DNA of 64,000 nucleotides, from contig NZ_FNQK01000006.1 in the NCBI RefSeq assembly GCF_900107625.1, forward strand, positions 62,001 through 126,000. The letters are read 5' to 3'. The translations under genes and the position numbers were made by a program. Under the pieces are notes generated by a model. The model ran no database searches. It was not told the DNA's origin and worked only from the letters and a program-made list of their open reading frames with translations. The stretch comes from Bizionia paragorgiae. Its GTDB lineage: Bacteria; Bacteroidota; Bacteroidia; Flavobacteriales; Flavobacteriaceae. Below, one piece after another: positions 9,561-49,516 of the stretch; position 1 is the stretch's first letter; the number at the start of each line of letters is the position of its first letter.

Positions 9561-12500
9561 TTATTTTTTAGATTCTATCCAGAGCCTAGCATTAACAAAT
9601 GCTTCTAGCCAAGGGCTGACTTCATCCGTTCTGTTTTCAGGGTAATTGGCCCAGTTCCACTGAAATGTAGAGCGCTCAATATGAGGCATTGTGACTAAAT
9701 GTCTTCCTGTTTTATCACATAACATTGCTGTGTTAAAATCGGAACCATTTGGATTACTTGGGTAACTGTCATAACCGTATTTAGCAACAATGTTATAGTT
9801 GTTTTCGCCTTGAGGTAAATTAAACTTTCCTTCACCATGAGAAATCCATACTCCTAACGTGCTACCTTCTAAAGAGGATAACATGACCGAGTTGTTTTTT
9901 TGAACATGTACCGAAGTAAATGCACTTTCGTGTTTTTTAGAATCGTTATGAATCATTTTCCCATGTACCTCATGTTCTGGATTTATTAAATCGAGTTCCA
10001 TAAATAACTGACAACCGTTACATATACCTACCGATAAAGTGTCTTCTCTTTTAAAGAAATCCGAAATGACTTCGTTCGCTTTTTCGTTGAATTTTATCGC
10101 ACCGGCCCATCCTTTAGCAGATCCTAATACATCACTATTAGAGAAACCTCCTACGGCACCCAGAAACTGAATGTCTTTTAAATCTTCGCGACCAGAAATT
10201 AAATCGGTCATATGCACATCCTTAACATCAAAACCTGCTAAATACATGGCATTGGCCATTTCACGCTCACTATTACTTCCTTTTTCTCTTAGAATAGCTG
10301 CTTTTGGTCTTGGTTTAGAGCTATCGATTACTGGTAATTTTCCAGTAAAATGAGTAGGGAAGGTATATTGAAGGGGTTGATTTGCGAAGTTTTTATAACG
10401 TGCTTCAGCTAAACCGTTAGCGGTCTGTTTTTGGTCTAATAAAAATGAGGTTTTATACCAAACATCTCTTAACCTTGAAACTGTTAACGTGTAAACTTCA
10501 TTTTTATTTATAATATTTAACACATCGCTATGAGTTGGTTTTCCAATGTTGAAAAACTTAATATTAGCGTCTGTTAATACGTTTTCTATAGTTTGATCTT
10601 TTGCTTGGAAAACTAGTCCTGAGTTTTCAGAGAATAATAATTTTACAGAATCTTCTTCTCCTAGAGCTGTTAAGTCTAATTCTGCTCCTAAATTAACTTC
10701 GGCAAAACAAAGCTCTAATAAGGTTGTAATTAATCCTCCTGAAGCGACATCGTGACCAGCAATAATCTTACCGTCCTTAATAAGTTGTTGAATGGTATTA
10801 AAGGTCGTTTTAAATTGAGAGGCATTTTTTATGGTTGGCGTGTCTTTACCAATTTTATTAAGTGTTTGAGCAAAAGCACTTCCTCCTAATTTAAAGTCAT
10901 CTTCCGAAAGATTGATATAATAAATATCACCACCGTTATGGCTTAAAACTGGCTCGACTACCTTAGAGATGTCGTTACAGTTACCAGCAGCAGAAATTAT
11001 AACCGTACCAGGAGAAATTACTTCCTCGTTCGGATATTTTTGTTTCATCGATAAAGAATCTTTCCCGGTCGGTACATTTATACCTAAATCGATGGCAAAT
11101 TCTGAAACAGCTTCTACAGCATCATATAACCTGGCATCTTCACCTTCATTTTTACAAGGCCACATCCAGTTTGCAGAAAGAGAAACCGACTGTAATCCGT
11201 CTTTTAAAGGCGCCCAAATAATATTAGTTAAAGATTCTGCAATAGCATTTCTACTCCCTGCTGTTGGACTTATTAATCCAGAGATAGGCGAGTGGCCTAC
11301 AGAGGTTGCAATACCTTCTTTACCTTTAAAGTCTAAAGCCATTACCCCACAATTGTTAAGTGGTAATTGTAAAGAACCCGCACATTGTTGTTTGGCAACT
11401 TTACCACCTACACAACGGTCTACTTTATTAGTTAACCAATCCTTACAAGCTACAGATTCTAACTGTAAGACATTATCGATATATTCAAGAATTTGATCTG
11501 GATTATAGCTAAGGTCTTCGTAGTTTCTATTAACAGTAACATCGGTCATGATTGTTTTTGGAGAGCTTCCAAACATATCTTCAAGTGCTAAATCCATAGG
11601 TTTTTCGCCTGTAGTTTTAGACTCGAATGTAAAACGATTGTTTAAAGTAACATCACCAACAGTATACATTGGCGAGCGCTCACGTTCGGCAATTCTATGT
11701 AGTGTATCAATATGTTTTTCGGCAATGACTAATCCCATTCTTTCTTGAGATTCATTACCAATAATTTCTTTTGCTGATAAGGTTGGGTCACCAACAGGGA
11801 GCTTATCTAAATCGATATGTCCTCCTGTGTCTTCAACTAATTCTGATAAACAATTTAAATGTCCACCGGCACCATGATCGTGAATAGATACGATATAGTT
11901 CTCTTCACTTTCTACCATACCTCTTACGGCATTGGCAGCACGTTTTTGCATTTCAGGGTTAGAACGTTGAACGGCATTGAGTTCAATTCCCGAAGCAAAT
12001 TCTCCTGTATCGGCACTAGAAACGGCAGCGCCTCCCATTCCAATACGGTAGTTTTCACCACCAAGAATTACAATTTTATCCCCTTCTTTTGGAGTATCTT
12101 TTAAGGCTTGGTCTGCTTTACCATAACCAATTCCTCCTGCTTGCATGATCACTTTATCGAAGCCTAATTTTTGGGCTTCTTCTTCGTGTTCGAAAGTAAG
12201 AACAGAACCACAAATTAATGGTTGTCCGAATTTGTTCCCAAAATCAGAGGCTCCATTACTTGCTTTTATTAATATATCCATTGGCGTTTGGTATAACCAA
12301 TTGCGTTCTTTCATTTTTTGTTCCCATGGTCTAGCTGCCTCTAATCGTGAGTAAGACGTCATGTAAACCGCAGTTCCAGCTAAAGGTAAAGATCCTTTTC
12401 CTCCCGCTAGACGGTCTCTGATCTCTCCTCCAGATCCAGTTGCCGCACCATTAAAAGGTTCAACAGTAGTAGGAAAGTTATGAGTTTCTGCTTTTAATGA

Positions 12501-39855: not shown

Positions 39856-40380
39856 TTATGCAAAAAATAGTGTTAGTGTTGTAGATCGTAGTTTTTTTGA
39901 ATAAAAGTGCATTATTAATAAATCTGGTTTCTTAGTTGTGCCATAGTTAAATGGTAGGTCTACATTTTGGATGCCATCAAAATTATAATCTAAATAAGTA
40001 TCCTTGATTTCTGGGGCATACAATTTTTTATTTCTTTTTAGCTTAGGTTTTACTTTTGAAACTCTACCAAAAGGGATTAGATTAGTAAATCTTTTGGCTA
40101 AAACATCGGTAGGCCTGAATCTTAAGTTGTTTTCATGATCTATTAAAGATATTTTATTTGGATCAAATACACCTTTTTTTTCTGTTGACTCTATTTTAAT
40201 TTTAACACTAATTTTATTTACATTATTTGATTTGTAGTTAGCACTAAATGTTGTTATCTCTTTTATTGTTTTTTTTGCTTTAATAAACTCAACATTAAAA
40301 CTGTCACTTTGTGAATAAGATGGACTACAAGTTGAAAATAAAATTGAAAATAAAATTAAAAAAGATATATTTAGATTCAT
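39856..40380 (-). CDS. Orphan small lipoprotein, unknown
   Basis: 174 residues. Lipobox LFSTC gives Cys18; the next residues SPSYSQSD are typical of an exported lipoprotein. The mature part is lysine-rich and beta-strand-like (NKISVKIKIESTEKKGVFDP; NLIPFGRVSKVKPKLKRNKK; LDYNFDGIQNVDLPFNYG). No family I recognise. The gene stands alone between rmuC and the BtuD-type ATPase gene, 68 bases after that gene in the same direction, with no clear promoter box. Its A+T content looks higher than its neighbours, so it may be a recent or strain-specific addition. Confidence 0.6.
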   Translation of the reverse strand: MNLNISFLILFSILFSTCSPSYSQSDSFNVEFIKAKKTIKEITTFSANYKSNNVNKISVKIKIESTEKKGVFDPNKISLIDHENNLRFRPTDVLAKRFTNLIPFGRVSKVKPKLKRNKKLYAPEIKDTYLDYNFDGIQNVDLPFNYGTTKKPDLLIMHFYSKKLRSTTLTLFFA

Positions 40381-40448: not shown

Positions 40449-41243
40449 TTATTTTTTAACCTTAAAACGCTCTGTTTCTTTATCAAAAACAATTAAATCA
40501 TTAGGGAATAAGTTATCAAATACACCTTGAGAGATTAAATGACATGGTTTGTCGCAAACAATACTATCTGTTTTCATTACGATTAGGCGGTCGCATAACT
40601 GAATGGCCAAATCAATTTCATGAGACGAAAATAAAATGGTTTTTCCTGTGTCTTCTACTAGTTTTTTAAGCCATTTTAAGATGTAAGCTTTATGATACAT
40701 ATCTAAATGAGTGGTAGGCTCGTCCAAAATAATAAGATCTGTATCTTGGGCCAATGCTCGAGCAATCATTACCTTTTGCAATTGTCCGTCGCTAAGCTCG
40801 TAACATTTTTTATTTTGTAAGCTCTCTAAATTAGTTTGAGAAATAGCAGAGGTAACGGCCTTTAAATCTGTTTTTGTGAGTGACCCCACCCAATTGGTAT
40901 AAGGTTGTCGGCCCAAGGCAATCAACTCAAAAACCGACATGTTTTTCGACGCAATAGGTTCTGTAAGTACAATACTTAAAACTTTTGCTAATGCGAGGTT
41001 ATCGTATTTTTCTATAGGTTTGTTGTGTAAAAACACACGGCCGTTTAATGCGGGTTGTACATGTGTTAAGGTTCTTAATAGCGTCGATTTACCAATACCA
41101 TTACCGCCAACGAGGCCCACAAGCTCTCCCTTTTTTAGGTTCAAATTAATTCCCGAAGCGATACTGGTTTCCGATTTTTTAGAACGGTATCCTATACTTA
41201 AATCTTCGGTTTTTAGTATGGTATGTTGTGTGGCGTCATTCAT
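40449..41243 (-). CDS. btuD: ABC transporter ATPase, vitamin B12/iron-chelate type (BtuD-like)
   Basis: 264 residues. Walker A is GLVGGNGIGKSTLLRTL near residue 47, the signature is LSDGQLQKVMIARAL (C-loop SDGQ), and Walker B DLIILDEPTTHLD. It is the energy-coupling subunit of the importer encoded by the next two genes; the permease stop is one base before its start. The family is shared by siderophore (FecE) and B12 (BtuD) systems; the cobalamin riboswitch of the divergent operon and the BtuG-like gene there favour B12. Confidence 0.9.
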   Translation of the reverse strand: MNDATQHTILKTEDLSIGYRSKKSETSIASGINLNLKKGELVGLVGGNGIGKSTLLRTLTHVQPALNGRVFLHNKPIEKYDNLALAKVLSIVLTEPIASKNMSVFELIALGRQPYTNWVGSLTKTDLKAVTSAISQTNLESLQNKKCYELSDGQLQKVMIARALAQDTDLIILDEPTTHLDMYHKAYILKWLKKLVEDTGKTILFSSHEIDLAIQLCDRLIVMKTDSIVCDKPCHLISQGVFDNLFPNDLIVFDKETERFKVKK

Positions 41244-41244
41244 A

Positions 41245-42276
41245 TTAAAAGACCATTTTACGTTTTCTAATTAATAACCAAATAACAACGGGTGCACCAA
41301 TTAATGAGGTAATAGCATTAATAGGCAAGGTATAATCTGTGTTTGGTAATTGCGCTATGCTATCGCAAATAAGCATGACGATTGCTCCAAACAAAAAGAC
41401 TGCAGGTATTAGCGTTCTATGATTAGCGGTATTAAATACCAAGCGTGTTATATGTGGAATGGCCAAACCAATAAAAGCAATAGGACCTGCAAATGCAGTA
41501 ATCGTTCCTGCCAACAAACTGGTAGCGATGATAATAATAAGTCGGCTTTTTTTTAGGTCTAAACCTAAGCTTTTCGCATAATTCTCACCTAATAACAGCG
41601 TGTTTAAAGCTTTTATAGATGCGATACTAAATAGTAAACCAACAGTGTAAATGGCGGCAAATACGCCGAGTTCATCCCACTGTAAATCACCTAAGCTACC
41701 AAATCCCCAAAATATATATTGTTGTAAATCTTCAGCCGAACTAAAATATGAGAGTACACTTACAACCGCCGATGTGATACTTCCAAACATTAAACCTATA
41801 ATAAGTATAGCCATAGTATCACGTACTTTAGATGACACGATTAAAACCGTAAGCAGAACTAAAAAACTTCCTATGCTAGCGGCGATTACCAAGCTCCATT
41901 TTGATATGAGCAAGGACGCAAAAACACCTCCAATTGCTGAGGCTCCCATAATAACAAGAGCAACACCCAAACTGGCTCCCGAAGTAATTCCTAAAACAAA
42001 AGGGCCCGCCAAAGGATTGCGAAATAAGGTTTGCATTAACAGTCCAGAAATACCAAGCCCAGACCCCACCAAAACCGCAGTTAAAGCTTTTGGTAATCTA
42101 TAATTTTGAATAATATATTCCTTGTTACTATACTGTGAAGCTTCAGTGAAAAAACTACTAAATATTTCGGTAAATGGAATAGAAATAGAACCCAAACTCA
42201 CATTGACGAAAAATAAAAGCACGACAAGAAAGAGAAGTATGATAAAGGTAACCGTATATGATGGCTGTGGCTTCAC
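41245..42276 (-). CDS. btuC: ABC transporter permease, vitamin B12/iron-chelate type (BtuC-like)
   Basis: 343 residues, about ten membrane segments, FecCD/BtuC family. Family motifs visible: YRLPKALTAVLVGSGLGISG, QTLFRNPLAGPFVLGITSGA, LLGENYAKSLGLDLKKSR and AGPIAFIGLAIPHITRLV (the coupling-helix region). The start is GTG at 42276, two bases after the btuF-type stop; no ATG is better placed. Forms the inner-membrane channel with two BtuD-type ATPases. Confidence 0.92.
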   Translation of the reverse strand: MKPQPSYTVTFIILLFLVVLLFFVNVSLGSISIPFTEIFSSFFTEASQYSNKEYIIQNYRLPKALTAVLVGSGLGISGLLMQTLFRNPLAGPFVLGITSGASLGVALVIMGASAIGGVFASLLISKWSLVIAASIGSFLVLLTVLIVSSKVRDTMAILIIGLMFGSITSAVVSVLSYFSSAEDLQQYIFWGFGSLGDLQWDELGVFAAIYTVGLLFSIASIKALNTLLLGENYAKSLGLDLKKSRLIIIIATSLLAGTITAFAGPIAFIGLAIPHITRLVFNTANHRTLIPAVFLFGAIVMLICDSIAQLPNTDYTLPINAITSLIGAPVVIWLLIRKRKMVF

Positions 42277-42278
42277 TA

Positions 42279-43427
42279 TTATTTTAGGGGTTTAAAAAAG
42301 TGTGGTGTATAGTCCGGTAAAACCTCTGGGTGACAGATTTTTATAATGTCTTTTAATACTAAATCTGGTCGTGCCATCCCTGATTCATAATAGGTAACCC
42401 CACCTGTGCGACCTGCGGTGTTGGCAAAGGTGTAAATGGTATTGTTTTTAAACGCGTCAAAATTACTATAGTGGGTATTGGCTTGCTCTAATTCAGCTTT
42501 ACTACGGTAATAGGCCGGACTTAACCAAATATCCGCATCTTTTGCAGTGTCATAAACGACTTCAAAGTTTAAAGAAAGGCTTCCAGAACCTTTAGTATTA
42601 CGCCACAAATAGTTAGCATTGGCATCTTTTAAAAATTGTGCCTCTGTACTTTCTCCATTTGGTAAGTGCCAAACGTCTTTATACATGGCTCCGCTTAATA
42701 TAGTAGGCTTTTTAGTGGTGTTTAAAGCTAATTTTTTAGCGTCGTTATAATCCGTTTGAATACGGTTAAATATCGAGTCGGCTTGCTGTTCTTTATTATA
42801 AAGCGCTCCGAAAAATTTAATCCATTCGGCTTTTCCTAAAGGCGATTTCTCCATCCAATCTCCGTTATAAATTACAGGAATGTTTGCTTTTTTTATGGTT
42901 TCTAAGGCTTTGTTTTTACCATCTAAACCAAAAGCCACTAAGACATCGGGAGCAATGTCTAAAACTACTTCGGTATTTAGGCCTTCAGTTTTTCCTAACT
43001 CACGAACGGCATTAGAATCAATCCTAGTGCGTGTTTTTTCTGAAGAAATATAGTCAGTACCCGGAAAACCACGCAGTGTTTCTTCAACATTTAAAAGTTC
43101 TAATGCTGGGATATGAGTGGTTGAAGTCACTATTATGTTTTCGATAGGCGTAATAATAATACCGTCGTATGCCTCTTTCATAAAGGTCGTTTTGGCTGCC
43201 TCTTCACGAGAAATTAAAACATAGTTAAAGCTTTTTTTTGCTTTTGGCCACGGACTTTTTATTTCAATAACCGAGTGGTTGTCGTGTTTGGTTATAGTAA
43301 ATCCTTTTGCATATGATATGGGTACTGTTGTACGCTGTGTTGTTGGAAGTGTACTGCTGTTTTGGGATTCCTGTTTACAAGACCAGAATGAAACACTAAC
43401 TAATAGAAAGAATACTATTTTTTTCAA
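42279..43427 (-). CDS. btuF: Periplasmic B12/chelate-binding lipoprotein (BtuF-like)
   Basis: 382 residues. The frame begins with TTG at 43427 (KKIVFFLLVSVSFWSC follows); upstream in frame there is a TGA and no ATG, so TTG is the start. Lipobox SFWSC gives lipidated Cys17. The mature protein is a class III solute-binding protein (TroA/BtuF fold): RTRIDSNAVRELGKTEGLN, then DVLVAFGLDGKNKALETIKKANIPVIYNGDW as residues about 180-215, and WLSPAYYRSKAELEQ. It delivers substrate to the BtuCD-type pair. Its promoter (43447-43475) overlaps the divergent riboswitch promoter, and its leader is only about 12-20 bases, too short for a riboswitch. Confidence 0.9.
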   Translation of the reverse strand: MKKIVFFLLVSVSFWSCKQESQNSSTLPTTQRTTVPISYAKGFTITKHDNHSVIEIKSPWPKAKKSFNYVLISREEAAKTTFMKEAYDGIIITPIENIIVTSTTHIPALELLNVEETLRGFPGTDYISSEKTRTRIDSNAVRELGKTEGLNTEVVLDIAPDVLVAFGLDGKNKALETIKKANIPVIYNGDWMEKSPLGKAEWIKFFGALYNKEQQADSIFNRIQTDYNDAKKLALNTTKKPTILSGAMYKDVWHLPNGESTEAQFLKDANANYLWRNTKGSGSLSLNFEVVYDTAKDADIWLSPAYYRSKAELEQANTHYSNFDAFKNNTIYTFANTAGRTGGVTYYESGMARPDLVLKDIIKICHPEVLPDYTPHFFKPLK

Positions 43428-43446
43428 AGCTTTAAGTTTTAGGTAT

Positions 43447-43475
43447 CAAAAGTAATATTAATTAATCTTTTGCAA
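43447..43475 (-). promoter_or_regulatory. Promoter of the btuFCD-type operon
   Basis: On the minus strand TTG (43475-43473) and TACTTTTG (43454-43447) with an 18-base spacer. It overlaps the plus-strand promoter of the receptor operon, so the two may interfere. Confidence 0.6.
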
Positions 43476-43502
43476 TAACATAAACTAAAATGTTTACTTT
43501 TG
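43469..43502 (+). promoter_or_regulatory. Promoter of the B12 receptor operon
   Basis: TTTG at 43469-43472 and TACTTTTG at 43495-43502, spacer 22. A transcript starting near 43509 would carry the complete riboswitch. Confidence 0.65.
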
Positions 43503-43544
43503 CAGCGAATTTTGGTTCGTTATAGAACACTATCAAAATAGTTT

Positions 43545-43710
43545 TGATCTGTCTGTACCGATTAAAAGGGAATTCCGTTAAATTCGGAAGCTGTTCCCGC
43601 AACTGTATTCTTAGTTCACGTTAGTGAATGCTTACTATTACACTTCAAGTCACTGGATATTTTTTCTGGGAAGACAAATAGTAAGACGAAAGCCAGGAGA
43701 CCTGCCATTT
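43545..43710 (+). ncRNA. Cobalamin riboswitch
   Basis: All hallmarks are present in order: AAAGGGAA (43564-43572 region), P5-like helix TTCCG/CGGAA (43573-43577 with 43585-43589), GCTGTTCCCGCAACTGTA (from 43590), the CACTGG ... TCTGGGAAGAC segment (about 43650-43676), and the B12 box AGCCAGGAGACCTGCC at 43691-43706. P4-like pairing is GGGAA (43568-43572) with TTCCC (43594-43598). The exact 5' edge is uncertain. It precedes the TonB-dependent receptor by about 45 bases and should repress it when cobalamin is abundant. Confidence 0.95.
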
Positions 43711-43725
43711 TTCATCATCTAAATT

Positions 43726-43744
43726 GACTTTCGGGAGAAAAGTC
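43726..43744 (+). promoter_or_regulatory. Hairpin just upstream of the receptor start, probable expression platform
   Basis: GACTTT (43726-43731) pairs with AAAGTC (43739-43744); the loop is CGGGAGA. The hairpin ends 10 bases before the ATG and has no following T-run, so it suggests translational control and not termination. The loop bases CGGGA are complementary to TCCCG at 43595-43599 in the aptamer. Confidence 0.5.
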
Positions 43745-43754
43745 CTCAAGATTT

Positions 43755-45605
43755 ATGAAACATATAATTTGTCTTTTACTAGTATTGAGTGTTTGTTTTG
43801 GTGGTATCGCCCAAACACAATTGGATTCTATCCAATCCTTAGATGAGGTGGTTTTAAGTGATGTGAAACTTAAACAGTACGCACCAGGATTTAAAATTGA
43901 AGTTTTAAAAGATTCTGTTCTCAGAACTAATGCACAGTCTTTAACAGGGCTTCTCGCGTTTAATTCTAATATCTACTTTAAAGAAAATGGTAACGGCATG
44001 GTGTCTTCCCCTTCATTTCGTGGCACTAATGCTTCGCAAACGGCCGTAATTTGGAACGGTATACCTATAAACTCTCAACTTAATGGTCAAACCGATTTTA
44101 ATACTATAAATACCACACATTATAATGATATTGCCATTCGTAGTGGTGGTGGTAGTGTGCAATATGGTAGTGGTGCAATAGGAGGGAGTATTCACCTAAA
44201 TAACACGCTTTTATTTAAGCCGCATTTTGATACTACCATGCGTCTAGGATATGGGAGTTACGATACGAAAACGGGGAGTGTGTCTAGCGCTATTGGTAGT
44301 GACCGCTGGTCTGTTAATGTGGGATTAGCCTATAACGCATCTGAAAATGACTATCCTTATCTTGGAACAACAAAGAAAAACGTTAACGGCGCATATAATA
44401 ACCTTGACCTAAATCTCAATCTCGGGTATTTTATTTCAGATAATGATGTGTTGAAACTTTACCATCAGCATTTTATAGGCAATCGAGATTTTTCGGGAAC
44501 GGTTGCGACGCCCTCTCAAAGTCATTATGAAGATAAAAATTACCGCAGTTTAATCGAGTGGTCCCATTTGGCTAAAGCGTTTAATTATCAATTAAAAGTG
44601 GCTCACTTACAAGAGCATTTTAAATATTTCGGCACCCAATCGACCTCTAATTTTTCCTACGGAAAAGTAAATACTCTAATCGTGAAACCGTCATTTAACT
44701 TTCGGTTTTCAAGAAAAATTAAACTGCAAACAAGTGTTGATTATACTAAGTACGATGCTGAAGGCACTAGCTTTGGCACTCCAAGTCGTTCTAATGTTTC
44801 GGCAACAGCTTTATTAAATCATAAGGTTTCACGAGCGTTTAGCTATGGTGTGAATTTGAGAAAGGATTTCACTTCCACATTTAGTAATCCGCTAGTGTTT
44901 TCTGTCGATACGGAATATGCTGTTACTAAACACTACAGTTTACAGCTTAACGGGTCGCGAAACTACCGTGTTCCCACTTTTAACGATTTGTATTGGCAAC
45001 CGGGAGGGAATTTGGACCTGATTCCTGAATCGTCGTATCAAGTTGATTTAGGTCAGCAATTATCGTTTGGTTTTGCTCAATTAAAATTAAACGGATACTT
45101 TATTAAAACTAGTGAATTAATTGTGTGGAAACCCAATAGTATCGGGTTATGGTCGCCTGTTAATATAGCATCAACTCAAAGTTATGGGGCAGAAATAGAA
45201 GGCCACGCCGAGGTGCATTTTAAATCACATTATTTTAAGTTAGATGGCCATTATTCGTATACCGTTTCTGAAGATACAAATACTAAAAAGCAACTTATTT
45301 ATGTGCCTTTTCACAAAGCCAATTTCTCTATAGCGTATTCTTATAAAAAGTTAGCACTGTTTTTTCAACATGCTTTTAACGGTGATGTATTCACTACCGA
45401 AGATAATTTAAAAGGACGGTTAACGTCATTACCATCGTATGATGTATCTAACCTAGGCCTAGAGTATAGTCTTTACAATAAAGGAAATAATACATTAAGC
45501 TTAGGGGGAACAATCAATAACGTATTTAATAAATCGTATCAAAGCGTAGCTTTTAGACCTATGCCCAATAGAAATTTTAATATACAATTACACTATAAAT
45601 TTTAA
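43755..45605 (+). CDS. btuB: TonB-dependent outer-membrane receptor, predicted vitamin B12 transporter (BtuB-like)
   Basis: 616 residues. Signal peptide ends near residue 20 (LSVCFGGIAQ). The plug domain occupies about 25-150 (LDEVVLSDVKLKQYAPG; SSPSFRGTNASQTAVIWNGIPIN; IRSGGGSVQYGSGAIGGSIHL) and a beta-barrel follows, ending in the aromatic C-terminal residue Phe (NRNFNIQLHYKF). Sequence alone does not fix the substrate; B12 is inferred from the riboswitch directly upstream and from the BtuG-like lipoprotein 11 bases downstream. Energy comes from TonB-ExbBD encoded elsewhere. Confidence 0.9.
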   Translation: MKHIICLLLVLSVCFGGIAQTQLDSIQSLDEVVLSDVKLKQYAPGFKIEVLKDSVLRTNAQSLTGLLAFNSNIYFKENGNGMVSSPSFRGTNASQTAVIWNGIPINSQLNGQTDFNTINTTHYNDIAIRSGGGSVQYGSGAIGGSIHLNNTLLFKPHFDTTMRLGYGSYDTKTGSVSSAIGSDRWSVNVGLAYNASENDYPYLGTTKKNVNGAYNNLDLNLNLGYFISDNDVLKLYHQHFIGNRDFSGTVATPSQSHYEDKNYRSLIEWSHLAKAFNYQLKVAHLQEHFKYFGTQSTSNFSYGKVNTLIVKPSFNFRFSRKIKLQTSVDYTKYDAEGTSFGTPSRSNVSATALLNHKVSRAFSYGVNLRKDFTSTFSNPLVFSVDTEYAVTKHYSLQLNGSRNYRVPTFNDLYWQPGGNLDLIPESSYQVDLGQQLSFGFAQLKLNGYFIKTSELIVWKPNSIGLWSPVNIASTQSYGAEIEGHAEVHFKSHYFKLDGHYSYTVSEDTNTKKQLIYVPFHKANFSIAYSYKKLALFFQHAFNGDVFTTEDNLKGRLTSLPSYDVSNLGLEYSLYNKGNNTLSLGGTINNVFNKSYQSVAFRPMPNRNFNIQLHYKF

Positions 45606-45616
45606 AACCAAACACA

Positions 45617-46675
45617 ATGAAAAACATTTTATTACCAGTAGTAGCTCTTTTACTTTTAACTTTCTCGTGCTCTAGCGATGATGATACTTTTTATGAAGAA
45701 GAAGTGGTAGCACCTTTAGGGGCTTATGAGGATGGTATTTTAGTAAGTTCTGAAGGCGGACCGTCGTCAATTGCTTTTATTTCTGAAGATTTATCAACTA
45801 GTGAAAATACAATTTATTACAACGTGAATAACGAGGATTTAGGAGTTTACCTACAGTCTATCGGGTTCAATAATGACTTGGCTTATATAGTAACAGATAG
45901 TAATAATACAATTACTATAGTAAACCGAAATACATTCGAAAAAGTAGGAGCAATTACAACAGGACTTGAATTACCACGTTATATTTCATTTTTAAATGGA
46001 AAAGGGTACGTTTCAAATTGGGGAGATCCTAATGATGCAACAGATGATTTTATTGCTGTAATTGACCTAGCAACAAATACTGTTGAATCAACTGTTCCTG
46101 TTGGAGAAGGACCTGAGCGTATTTTAGCAAATGATAATAAATTATTTGTTTCTCATAAAGGTGGATATGGTTCTAATAATATAATTTCTGTAGTACATGC
46201 TAACAGTACTGTTGTGAATACTATTACTGTTAACGATAATCCAGATGAAATGATTATGAACAACTCAGGGCAACTGGTTGTATTATGTGGAGGTAAAGAG
46301 GCGTGGTCTGGAACTGAAACTCTTGGATCTATTACAAAAATTAATGTGACTAACAATACTGTTATTTCTAACCATGAGTTTCCAATGGGAGTACACCCAA
46401 ATTTAATGGATTACGGTAATGGTAACTTATACTTTCAAACTTCAGATAATAAAATTTATAGTATGACAGATGCTGATACGAGTTTACCTACGACATCAAT
46501 ATTAGAGTTAACAACAGGGTATACTTATGGTATGGCTGTTAAAGACAATAGATTGTTTGTAGCTGATGCTAGTTTTACGTCACAAAGTGAAATTTTAGTT
46601 TATGACTTGTCTACAGCGACGCAAACACATTCTTTTGATGCAGGAATCGGAGCCTCAAAAATTTACTTTAATTAG
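45617..46675 (+). CDS. BtuG-like surface lipoprotein, YncE/DUF5074 beta-propeller
   Basis: 352 residues. Lipobox LLTFSC gives Cys18, followed at once by SSDDD, an acidic stretch of the sort that directs lipoproteins to the cell surface in Bacteroidota. The body is a YVTN-like propeller: DLAYIVTDSNNTITIVNRNTF, GKGYVSNWGDPND, FIAVIDLATNTVESTVPVG, NKLFVSHKGGYGSNNIISVV, and YFQTSDNKIYSMTDAD. Bacteroides BtuG has this architecture and binds cobalamin tightly on top of BtuB. Placement directly after the riboswitch-controlled receptor gene supports the same job; binding itself is inferred. Confidence 0.82.
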   Translation: MKNILLPVVALLLLTFSCSSDDDTFYEEEVVAPLGAYEDGILVSSEGGPSSIAFISEDLSTSENTIYYNVNNEDLGVYLQSIGFNNDLAYIVTDSNNTITIVNRNTFEKVGAITTGLELPRYISFLNGKGYVSNWGDPNDATDDFIAVIDLATNTVESTVPVGEGPERILANDNKLFVSHKGGYGSNNIISVVHANSTVVNTITVNDNPDEMIMNNSGQLVVLCGGKEAWSGTETLGSITKINVTNNTVISNHEFPMGVHPNLMDYGNGNLYFQTSDNKIYSMTDADTSLPTTSILELTTGYTYGMAVKDNRLFVADASFTSQSEILVYDLSTATQTHSFDAGIGASKIYFN

Positions 46676-46713: not shown

Positions 46714-46753
46714 AACTGCTTTGTTCTACCTTGTGTAGGCAAAGCAGTTTTTT
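46714..46753. terminator. Terminator of the B12 receptor operon, probably bidirectional
   Basis: AACTGCTTTG (46714-46723) with CAAAGCAGTT (46740-46749), inner CTAC/GTAG pairing, then a T-run. It separates the operon from the convergent COG2102 gene. Confidence 0.82.
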
Positions 46754-47451
46754 TATGATTGTAAATCACAAAACCAAAATCCGGATTTCCCTCCTTTAAC
46801 ATTAGGGGAGTCGTATTCGCGATAGGTTTTTTCTCCAATAGAATAGGCTACAGGTGTTTTAAAAATAGGACCATCGTAGCAAAAGGTATGGAACTCTCCG
46901 TTTTCACCGCAAGGGTCAACACCTTCCGGTAACTTTTTAATAAGATCTTTGCTAAGTGTTTGTCCTACAAAATCGTCGTTAAAATATTTTGCATCTGCAC
47001 AAACTATAACGGCTTTAAAACCTAAATCTAGAAAGGTATTAATAAGTGTTTTAGTGTCCTTTTTCCATAAAGGAAAAATGCCAGTCAGTTCTACTTTTTC
47101 TAATTCATTTTCGCGATACTGTTTTAAATCTTCCAAAAAAATATCTCCAAACAAACTATGTGTATACCCTTCATTCTTTAACCGTGTTGTAGTGCGCTTC
47201 ATTATTTGGTTGTACGCCTCCATCGATGGGTTTTCGGGTAATTCTATAGTTGTACCTTTAATACCAATAGCTTCCGTCTGTGCGTGAAGCAAATTAAGTG
47301 GTAAACCGTGCATGGTCACCCGTTGATAGTGTGAGTTTACAGAAGTAACGAGTTCGCTAACATCGAAACGCTCGTCTTTAAGTGTATAATACAACGCAAG
47401 GGCAGCATCTTTGCCGCTGCTCCAGTTGCAATAGGTTTTGTGTTTAAACAT
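46753..47451 (-). CDS. COG2102 ATP-pyrophosphatase (diphthine--ammonia ligase-like)
   Basis: 232 residues. The PP-loop is at the N-terminus (YCNWSSGKDAALALYYTL, SGGKDS-like with SSGKDAA), and the family motifs GDIFLEDLKQYREN, GIFPLWKKDTKTL and DPCGENGEFHTFCYDGPIF are intact. In archaea and eukaryotes the family amidates diphthine on EF-2; bacteria lack diphthamide, so that name should not be taken literally here. It probably adenylates and amidates some carboxylate. It lies 14 bases after the S41 peptidase stop and is convergent with the B12 operon. Confidence 0.85.
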   Translation of the reverse strand: MFKHKTYCNWSSGKDAALALYYTLKDERFDVSELVTSVNSHYQRVTMHGLPLNLLHAQTEAIGIKGTTIELPENPSMEAYNQIMKRTTTRLKNEGYTHSLFGDIFLEDLKQYRENELEKVELTGIFPLWKKDTKTLINTFLDLGFKAVIVCADAKYFNDDFVGQTLSKDLIKKLPEGVDPCGENGEFHTFCYDGPIFKTPVAYSIGEKTYREYDSPNVKGGKSGFWFCDLQS

Positions 47452-47465
47452 GAGTACTTATTGTA

Positions 47466-48863
47466 TTAGTCAATGTACATGTCCTTAGAAAACGGTATGA
47501 AATCATTACTATCTCCAACGGCTTCAAACGATTTACCTTCAACAGAATGTGATGTTTTATTGGTGTTGGCAATATCATTTAATGCTTCAGCTAAAAGAGG
47601 TTCATTCTCATTTCCAAGTACACCTAAGTTATTCAGTTGCTCTTTATATTCTATTACAGGCACTAAACCAGTCGGTGGCACACCTTCATCTAAAACATTT
47701 ACTGTTTTGGCTACCAAGGGTTGCAGTGCATAGGTATGTCGAGGATCGGCATTGGTACGTCCAAAATCTGGAGAATCATAAAGTGTGATTGAAGCTTGCG
47801 ATTTTCCTGTTGTAATATCGCCAACTTGTACCACGGTGAGATAAGGTTTTAAACTATTAATCACCATTTCGCTCGCTGAAGCCGAACTTTTTGAGGTTAG
47901 GACATAGACTTTATTCAAATTTAAACTATAGCCTTGAGAGCTAAAAGTATAGCTGGTATTATTACTTTGCAATTGGTAGTTGTACTGTAGTTTTGAGAAC
48001 GTTTCACCGCTAAAGTTCCCGTTGATAAGACTTCCTAATAGCGCCGCGGTGGTTACCGAACCTCCAGAATTATAACGCAAATCGATTACTAAATGCTGCA
48101 CGGCATTCGCTTTTAAAATTCCAAATGCATTTTTTAGAGATTCATTAAAATTGGCAACGAATCCGTTGTACATTAGGTAGCCCACATTTTCACCTTCCAC
48201 TTGTAATATAGTCGTTTTATATACAGGGTTTTCAGTATAGGAAACCATGCTTAAATCGACTGTGTTTGGTGTAGGGTCAATACTATCATCATCAGGGTCT
48301 GTTGTATTGTTATTATTATAGGCCGCTAAATTTAAGGTAAATGCATATTGATTTAATAAACCTCTGTAATTAGAGACTGTTAATGGAGTGCCGTTAACAG
48401 CATAAAATAAATCACCACGTTGTAAGCCTGCACTTTCTGCACTGGTATTTGGTAAAATATAACGCACATAGCCAAAAATAGCATCCGATCCTGAGGCATA
48501 ACGCACAAGACCATATTCCATACCTGTAGTTGTAGATAGTCCACTAAATAATTGTTCTAATGCTAAATAATCGGTTGTAATCCAACTAAATTTATCCACC
48601 GTAGTACGGTTATATATTAAAGTTTCGAAGAGGTCTTGGGGTTGTGTATATTGCGATAAATAACTAGTGTAATCAGGGCGCGATACTTTATCTTCAAGTA
48701 AATGAGGTACTTGATCCTTATATAAATAATAAGTATCCATTGCTTTGTAAACAAAATCATTAATGTCGACGGAATCTATAGGTTTATCATCTAAATCTTC
48801 GAAACAACTTGTAAACAGAAAGGATATGGCTACAGCAAATAGAATTTTATGGAGGCTTTTCAT
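47466..48863 (-). CDS. S41 family (C-terminal processing-like) peptidase, lipoprotein
   Basis: 465 residues from the ATG at 48863 (MKSLHKILFAVAISF). A longer in-frame reading to 49013 adds 50 unlikely residues and overlaps the divergent sigma gene, so the shorter start is chosen. Lipobox FLFTSC gives Cys20. A helical cap follows, then a PDZ-like domain (YVRYILPNTSAESAGLQRGDLFYAVNGTPL) and the S41 core with HLVIDLRYNSGGSVTTAA and VLTSKSSASASEMVI, the latter holding the serine; the lysine is probably in GKSQASITLYD. It would act in the periplasm or at the surface. The COG2102 gene follows 14 bases downstream. Confidence 0.88.
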   Translation of the reverse strand: MKSLHKILFAVAISFLFTSCFEDLDDKPIDSVDINDFVYKAMDTYYLYKDQVPHLLEDKVSRPDYTSYLSQYTQPQDLFETLIYNRTTVDKFSWITTDYLALEQLFSGLSTTTGMEYGLVRYASGSDAIFGYVRYILPNTSAESAGLQRGDLFYAVNGTPLTVSNYRGLLNQYAFTLNLAAYNNNNTTDPDDDSIDPTPNTVDLSMVSYTENPVYKTTILQVEGENVGYLMYNGFVANFNESLKNAFGILKANAVQHLVIDLRYNSGGSVTTAALLGSLINGNFSGETFSKLQYNYQLQSNNTSYTFSSQGYSLNLNKVYVLTSKSSASASEMVINSLKPYLTVVQVGDITTGKSQASITLYDSPDFGRTNADPRHTYALQPLVAKTVNVLDEGVPPTGLVPVIEYKEQLNNLGVLGNENEPLLAEALNDIANTNKTSHSVEGKSFEAVGDSNDFIPFSKDMYID

Positions 48864-49006
48864 TATAATAGGTTTCTTTTTCAGTTTAAATGTACTTACT
48901 TTTAGTCGGATTAAAAATAAATTGTAACAAAACTGGCATCCAATCGTCGTAATAGTATAGTGCGATAAAAAGCACTGTAAAACAAACCACCAACCAAAGC
49001 AAAATA

Positions 49007-49516
49007 ATGACACAGTCCGATTTTTTAACTATTGTGACGCCTTTTAAAGACAAAGTCTTTCGTTTAGCAAAACGATTGCTAGTGTCGACAGAAGAAGCAG
49101 AAGATGCGACACAAGAAGTCATGATAAAGCTTTGGAAGAATAAAAAGAATATAAAAAACTATAAGAATGTTGAAGCTTTTTCGATGACCATGACCAAGAA
49201 TTTTTGTTATGACAAATTAAAATCGAAGCAAGCTCAAAATTTAAAAATAGTTCATAATAATTACGAAGACACGCAAGTAGGTTTACAAAAACAGTTGGAG
49301 GACAGTGATAGTTTAGACTGGGTGGGTAAAATAATGAATGGTTTACCTGAGCAGCAAAAACTAATCGTTCAACTTCGTGATATCGAGCAATACGAATTTA
49401 AAGAGATTGCACAAATGCTAGATATGAATGAAACCGCAATTCGCGTTGCTTTATCTAGAGCTAGAAAAACTATTAAAGAACAATTAACTAATACACATAA
49501 TTATGGTATTAAATAA
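49007..49516 (+). CDS. ECF-type RNA polymerase sigma-70 factor
   Basis: 169 residues. Region 2: VSTEEAEDATQEVMIKLWKN; region 4: LPEQQKLIVQLRDIEQYEFKEIA followed by ETAIRVALSRARKTIKEQL. It heads a four-gene operon: its end overlaps the next start by 14 bases. The module differs from the sigma operon at 17706-19212, which has a Spy-like protein in place of the DUF4252 pair. Confidence 0.92.
   Translation: MTQSDFLTIVTPFKDKVFRLAKRLLVSTEEAEDATQEVMIKLWKNKKNIKNYKNVEAFSMTMTKNFCYDKLKSKQAQNLKIVHNNYEDTQVGLQKQLEDSDSLDWVGKIMNGLPEQQKLIVQLRDIEQYEFKEIAQMLDMNETAIRVALSRARKTIKEQLTNTHNYGIK

Follow-up and report, generated by a model that had tools for sequence, protein, structure and literature searches.

A stretch of 64,000 nucleotides from the genome of Bizionia paragorgiae, here called the window, very probably carries a BtuBG-BtuFCD cobamide uptake system in a member of the Flavobacteriaceae that is an obligate cobamide scavenger. 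The transport locus is of a known kind, BtuBG plus BtuFCD, and mostly ordinary, and the same gene block is found in relatives from Lacinutrix, Olleya and Algibacter. Its DUF71-B12 neighbour matters more than the transport locus itself, because the leading proposal for this gene needs enzymes that are missing from these genomes. All six parts named in the initial annotation (riboswitch, receptor, propeller, binding lipoprotein, permease and ATPase) were detected where it had placed them. The extent of 6.3 kb that it gave holds for 40449-46675, but the coordinates that it attached, 42279-46675, run only from BtuF to BtuG and leave the permease and ATPase outside; its reading of the cluster also stops short of the end of the neighbourhood, where the DUF71-B12 gene (46753-47451) lies. 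At the other end, a 174-aa ORF downstream of btuD (39856-40380, putatively secreted) was excluded from the system, since it has no Pfam or NCBIfam family match and no homologue at the loci of relatives.

Surface receptor and propeller

The gene at 43755-45605 on the plus strand encodes a BtuB-type TonB-dependent receptor of 616 aa with plug plus barrel (PF00593 and PF07715). A phmmer search of the PDB matched it to BtuB3 and BtuB2 at 1e-50, to BtuB1 at 1e-13 and to other TonB receptors at 1e-7. Its top NCBIfam match is TIGR01779 (TonB-B12), with 114 bits against an equivalog cut-off of 600, and the receptor is therefore claimed as BtuBG-type and not as a TIGR01779 equivalog.

The next gene on the same strand (45617-46675) encodes a BtuG-type beta-propeller lipoprotein of 352 aa, whose lipobox, SCSSDDD, resembles a surface-export signal and whose nearest solved relatives by sequence are BtuG3 and BtuG2 (phmmer, 5e-16 to BtuG3). 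In a Foldseek search with the predicted propeller model (mean pLDDT 87), ranks 1-13 were all BtuG or the uniformis homologue 3dsm, and VIA-align gave Z scores of 37-38 for BtuG2 and BtuG3, 35 for BtuG1 and 30 for the top non-B12 propeller, the best BtuG alignment (Z 38.4) covering 302 residues with an rmsd of 1.9. By sequence and predicted fold, the propeller belongs with the BtuG type, and corrinoid binding is predicted for it. Its affinity and ligand range stay putative, because identity to the solved BtuG proteins is low (~22-24%) and the pocket residues are at most partly conserved, with some aromatics seemingly replaced when the phmmer alignment is read by eye.

The ABC importer

Permease, ATPase and binding protein genes form one minus-strand operon running from 43427 to 40449, and the combination of a FecCD permease, an ABC ATPase and a Peripla_BP_2 protein identifies BtuFCD as a type II ABC importer. 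The first gene (42279-43427, minus strand, TTG start) encodes a BtuF-like substrate-binding lipoprotein (PF01497 Peripla_BP_2, 3e-18; lipobox FWSCKQES) that had no close match in a PDB search; it carries no acidic surface-export stretch after the cysteine and probably faces the periplasm. It is followed by a BtuC-like permease (41245-42276, minus strand, GTG start; PF01032 FecCD, 1e-80), whose top NCBIfam match is BtuC with 224 bits against a cut-off of 334, and by a BtuD-like ABC ATPase (40449-41243, minus strand; PF00005, 3e-28), whose top NCBIfam matches are FecE and corrinoid ABC ATPases, all under their equivalog cut-offs. Scores below these cut-offs mean that the permease and ATPase are putatively named, by family and context; the position of the ATPase gene is unchanged in relatives.

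Riboswitch, hairpin and promoters

The initial annotation had staked its reading on a cobalamin riboswitch, and a search with the RF00174 model returned one at 43522-43723 on the plus strand, matched over its full length (1-189 of 189) with 86 bits (E 8e-20) against a curated gathering score of 31.5 bits. It is the only cobalamin riboswitch that the RF00174 search found in the 3.14 Mb genome. On its 3' side, a plus-strand hairpin, GACTTT-CGGGAGA-AAAGTC (43726-43744), ends 10 bases before the btuB ATG. Across 7 sequences, its stem shows standard pairing at 42 of 42 pairs, compensatory changes on both sides included, and the CGGG core of the loop does not vary; this pattern makes the hairpin a likely candidate for a P13-like expression platform.

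Two copies of TACTTTTG, a Bacteroidota-type -7 element (TAnnTTTG) read directly as a pattern, lie between the divergent units, one on the minus strand before btuFCD (43447-43454) and one on the plus strand before the riboswitch-btuB-btuG transcript (43495-43502). The divergent TAnnTTTG pair, ~49 bases apart, recurs in four relatives (L038, L049, L040 and L052), and the two elements would act as promoters. Whereas the annotated riboswitch itself stands, its transcript carries btuB-btuG only, and control of btuFCD by the riboswitch was ruled out, since the operon has its own divergent promoter and a leader of ~20 bases that lacks room for an aptamer. The switch should consequently control the amounts of the surface proteins alone, and it is predicted to lower downstream expression with cobalamin.

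Cobamide dependence of the genome

No CbiB, CobS or CbiZ was found in a genome-wide search of this 99.9% complete genome. It follows that no known route allows the cell to synthesize cobamides or to reassemble them from cobinamide, and the CbiB and CobS that CbiZ-type remodelling requires for cobamide rebuilding are both missing. The genome nevertheless encodes B12 users, namely methylmalonyl-CoA mutase, a fused B12-binding/MeaB mutase and a B12-binding-like radical SAM protein, together with a PduO-type adenosyltransferase; neither the MetH B12-binding domain (PF02310) nor MetE (PF01717) was found in a whole-genome search. With B12-dependent mutases and an adenosyltransferase present but CbiB and CobS absent, finished cobamide must be imported. 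B12 scavenging, which the initial annotation had suspected, is thereby a firm genomic inference, and the B12-dependent enzymes that it had proposed to look for are represented by the two mutases.

Ligand and uptake route

Three lines point to B12 or another corrinoid as the ligand: the riboswitch, the receptor and the propeller, for which binding is predicted. It could be supposed that the receptor and propeller import something else, such as a xenosiderophore, and that the riboswitch merely couples this import to B12, given that Bacteroides also uses pairs of a surface propeller and a TonB receptor for siderophores (XusB, PMC13142918) and that siderophores are also carried by FecCD-type ABC importers. 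This is hardly credible here. The XusAB system shares the overall architecture, but the XusB propeller is a seven-bladed DUF4374 protein (PMC13142918), whereas that of the window is of the DUF5074/BtuG type. The top sequence and structure relatives of the propeller are B12-binding BtuG proteins, the receptor is nearest to BtuB, and the riboswitch that precedes both genes is the sole copy in a genome that depends on B12 and does not make it. A siderophore ligand for the pair was rejected on the propeller family, the BtuB and BtuG relatives and the fold, and neither protein groups with systems for another ligand, which the initial annotation had named as a possible ground against its reading.

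For a corrinoid ligand, the following route is proposed. At low cobalamin the riboswitch would allow btuB-btuG expression; the surface lipoprotein BtuG would catch the corrinoid and pass it to BtuB, which would transport it to the periplasm in a TonB-driven step, where BtuF would bind it for import by BtuCD. The imported corrinoid would then be adenosylated by the PduO-type enzyme and serve methylmalonyl-CoA mutase and the fused mutase. At high cobalamin the aptamer would close the hairpin platform and switch off the costly surface parts, and btuFCD would stay expressed from its divergent promoter when cobalamin is plentiful.

With the E. coli BtuB-BtuFCD system, the locus shares the logic of an outer-membrane receptor plus an ABC importer; E. 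coli is not known to have a BtuG lid. The mechanism of BtuBG and its riboswitch control are known in Bacteroides (PMC10404256), and the BtuB2G2 and BtuB3G3 loci of Bacteroides thetaiotaomicron share with the window the riboswitch, the BtuB receptor and the BtuG lipoprotein lid (PMC10404256, PMC6143338). In contrast to those loci, the window has a single minimal locus with no extra surface lipoprotein (BtuH-like) between the genes, its btuFCD operon is divergent and outside riboswitch control, and its propeller is only ~23% identical. The locus thus represents, in Flavobacteriaceae and in an obligate B12 importer, a minimal form of the lid-and-receptor strategy of gut Bacteroides.

The DUF71-B12 neighbour

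Convergent with btuG, and here separate from the riboswitch transcript, a minus-strand gene at 46753-47451 encodes a PP-loop ATP pyrophosphatase of the DUF71-B12 type (PF01902, 1.7e-33); the genome has no other PF01902 protein. The sequence GENGEFHTF of the window protein holds the ENGEFH motif, in which ENGEF/YH replaces the Dph6 EGGE/DXE, and GENGE[FY]H is present in nearly all homologues checked. The protein shares PF01902, the ENGEF/YH motif and proximity to btu genes with the DUF71-B12 subgroup of COG2102 (PMC3541065). A role as diphthamide synthase was rejected, the host being bacterial and ENGEFH standing in place of the EGGE-type motif (PMC3541065). An S41 peptidase lipoprotein gene (47466-49013, minus strand; PF03572) lies 14 bases upstream of DUF71 and is probably its operon partner, and the S41-DUF71 order is retained in 17 of the 17 nearest relatives.

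The DUF71-B12 subgroup has been predicted to function in B12 salvage, most likely as a substitute for CbiZ, on the ground that genomes with CbiB nearly always also had CbiZ or DUF71-B12 (de Crecy-Lagard et al., 2012; PMC3541065). No experimental test of DUF71-B12 was found in the literature searched, within a limited library. Applied to the window, this proposal would make the protein a CbiZ-like amidohydrolase that splits imported pseudo-B12 for remodelling. The ENGEFH motif and the adjoining btu genes agree with it, and its basis was that DUF71-B12 and CbiB occur together in other prokaryotes (PMC3541065); the window copy sits in a genome without CbiB and CobS, and the products of such a cleavage need CbiB and then CobS.

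Distribution of DUF71-B12 across the class

A survey of 295 genomes sampled evenly across the class detected DUF71 in 95 and CbiB in 6; CobS passed its cut-off in 23 (24 if the E-value limit is applied instead), and no genome of the 295 had CbiZ. DUF71 and CbiB never share a genome, and of the 95 genomes with DUF71, 85 have neither CbiB nor CobS; Fisher tests for an association between DUF71 and the presence of either enzyme gave p 0.25 for CobS and 0.18 for CbiB, significant in neither direction. With most carriers lacking both enzymes, the role of CbiZ substitute fails here unless unknown enzymes replace the two, and it was rejected for the window, where it is highly unlikely. The class data contradict, for this class, DUF71-B12 as a CbiZ replacement in remodelling, and the survey narrows a prediction that has stood since 2012.

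The link of DUF71-B12 to B12 is real across the class. Among the riboswitch matches listed, a cobalamin riboswitch is found within 10 kb of at least 23 DUF71 matches against 0.34 expected, a statistic in which related genomes of the survey are not independent, and 21 of these 23, from 20 genomes, lie downstream of the riboswitch on the same strand. None of the 20 genomes has CbiB or CobS (among the matches listed). At two loci (L065 and L073), DUF71 comes after btuB-btuG, behind the riboswitch. In Flavobacterium rakeshii (L056), a riboswitch at 9708-9888 directly precedes DUF71 (from ~10001), and a search with the window proteins found no btu gene within 10 kb.

These arrangements speak against the idea that DUF71 in the window is unrelated to B12, belonging with the S41 peptidase and adjoining the btu genes by chance. 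That idea draws on the order of the genes, DUF71 following S41 and converging on the receptor-propeller unit in the window and 17 relatives, and on the many copies in Flavobacterium, Chryseobacterium and Aquimarina that are far from any cobalamin riboswitch among the matches listed. Set against the excess of copies near riboswitches, their shared strand and the loci at which DUF71 follows btuB-btuG or the riboswitch itself, we consider it unlikely.

If related to B12 at all, DUF71-B12 would most likely modify the imported corrinoid with its nucleotide loop left intact. One doubtful possibility, offered tentatively, is an ATP-dependent repair or conditioning of imported cobamides in cells that can neither synthesize nor rebuild them; it might, for instance, restore the amide groups of hydrolysed corrin side chains, an idea suggested by the relative Dph6, which converts a carboxylate to an amide with ATP and ammonia. 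Were this so, cobamide repair would be a salvage step for scavengers and not for remodellers, which is not described in the literature searched. The class, with so many DUF71 carriers devoid of CbiB and CobS, provides a clean setting in which to test the enzyme on imported cobamide.

Some DUF71 copies have other surroundings. On four contigs (G059:C6, G194:C1, G247:C20 and G279:C151), DUF71 lies 1-2 kb from CobS, and three of these genomes hold extra DUF71 copies. The copies of G059 and G247 (L010 and L011) have diverged from the window type, and copies of this kind suggest a separate DUF71 subgroup linked to nucleotide-loop assembly. In Chitinophagaceae bacterium DXS (L099), a riboswitch-like cobalamin box, recognized by eye, precedes a MetE-like ORF near DUF71.
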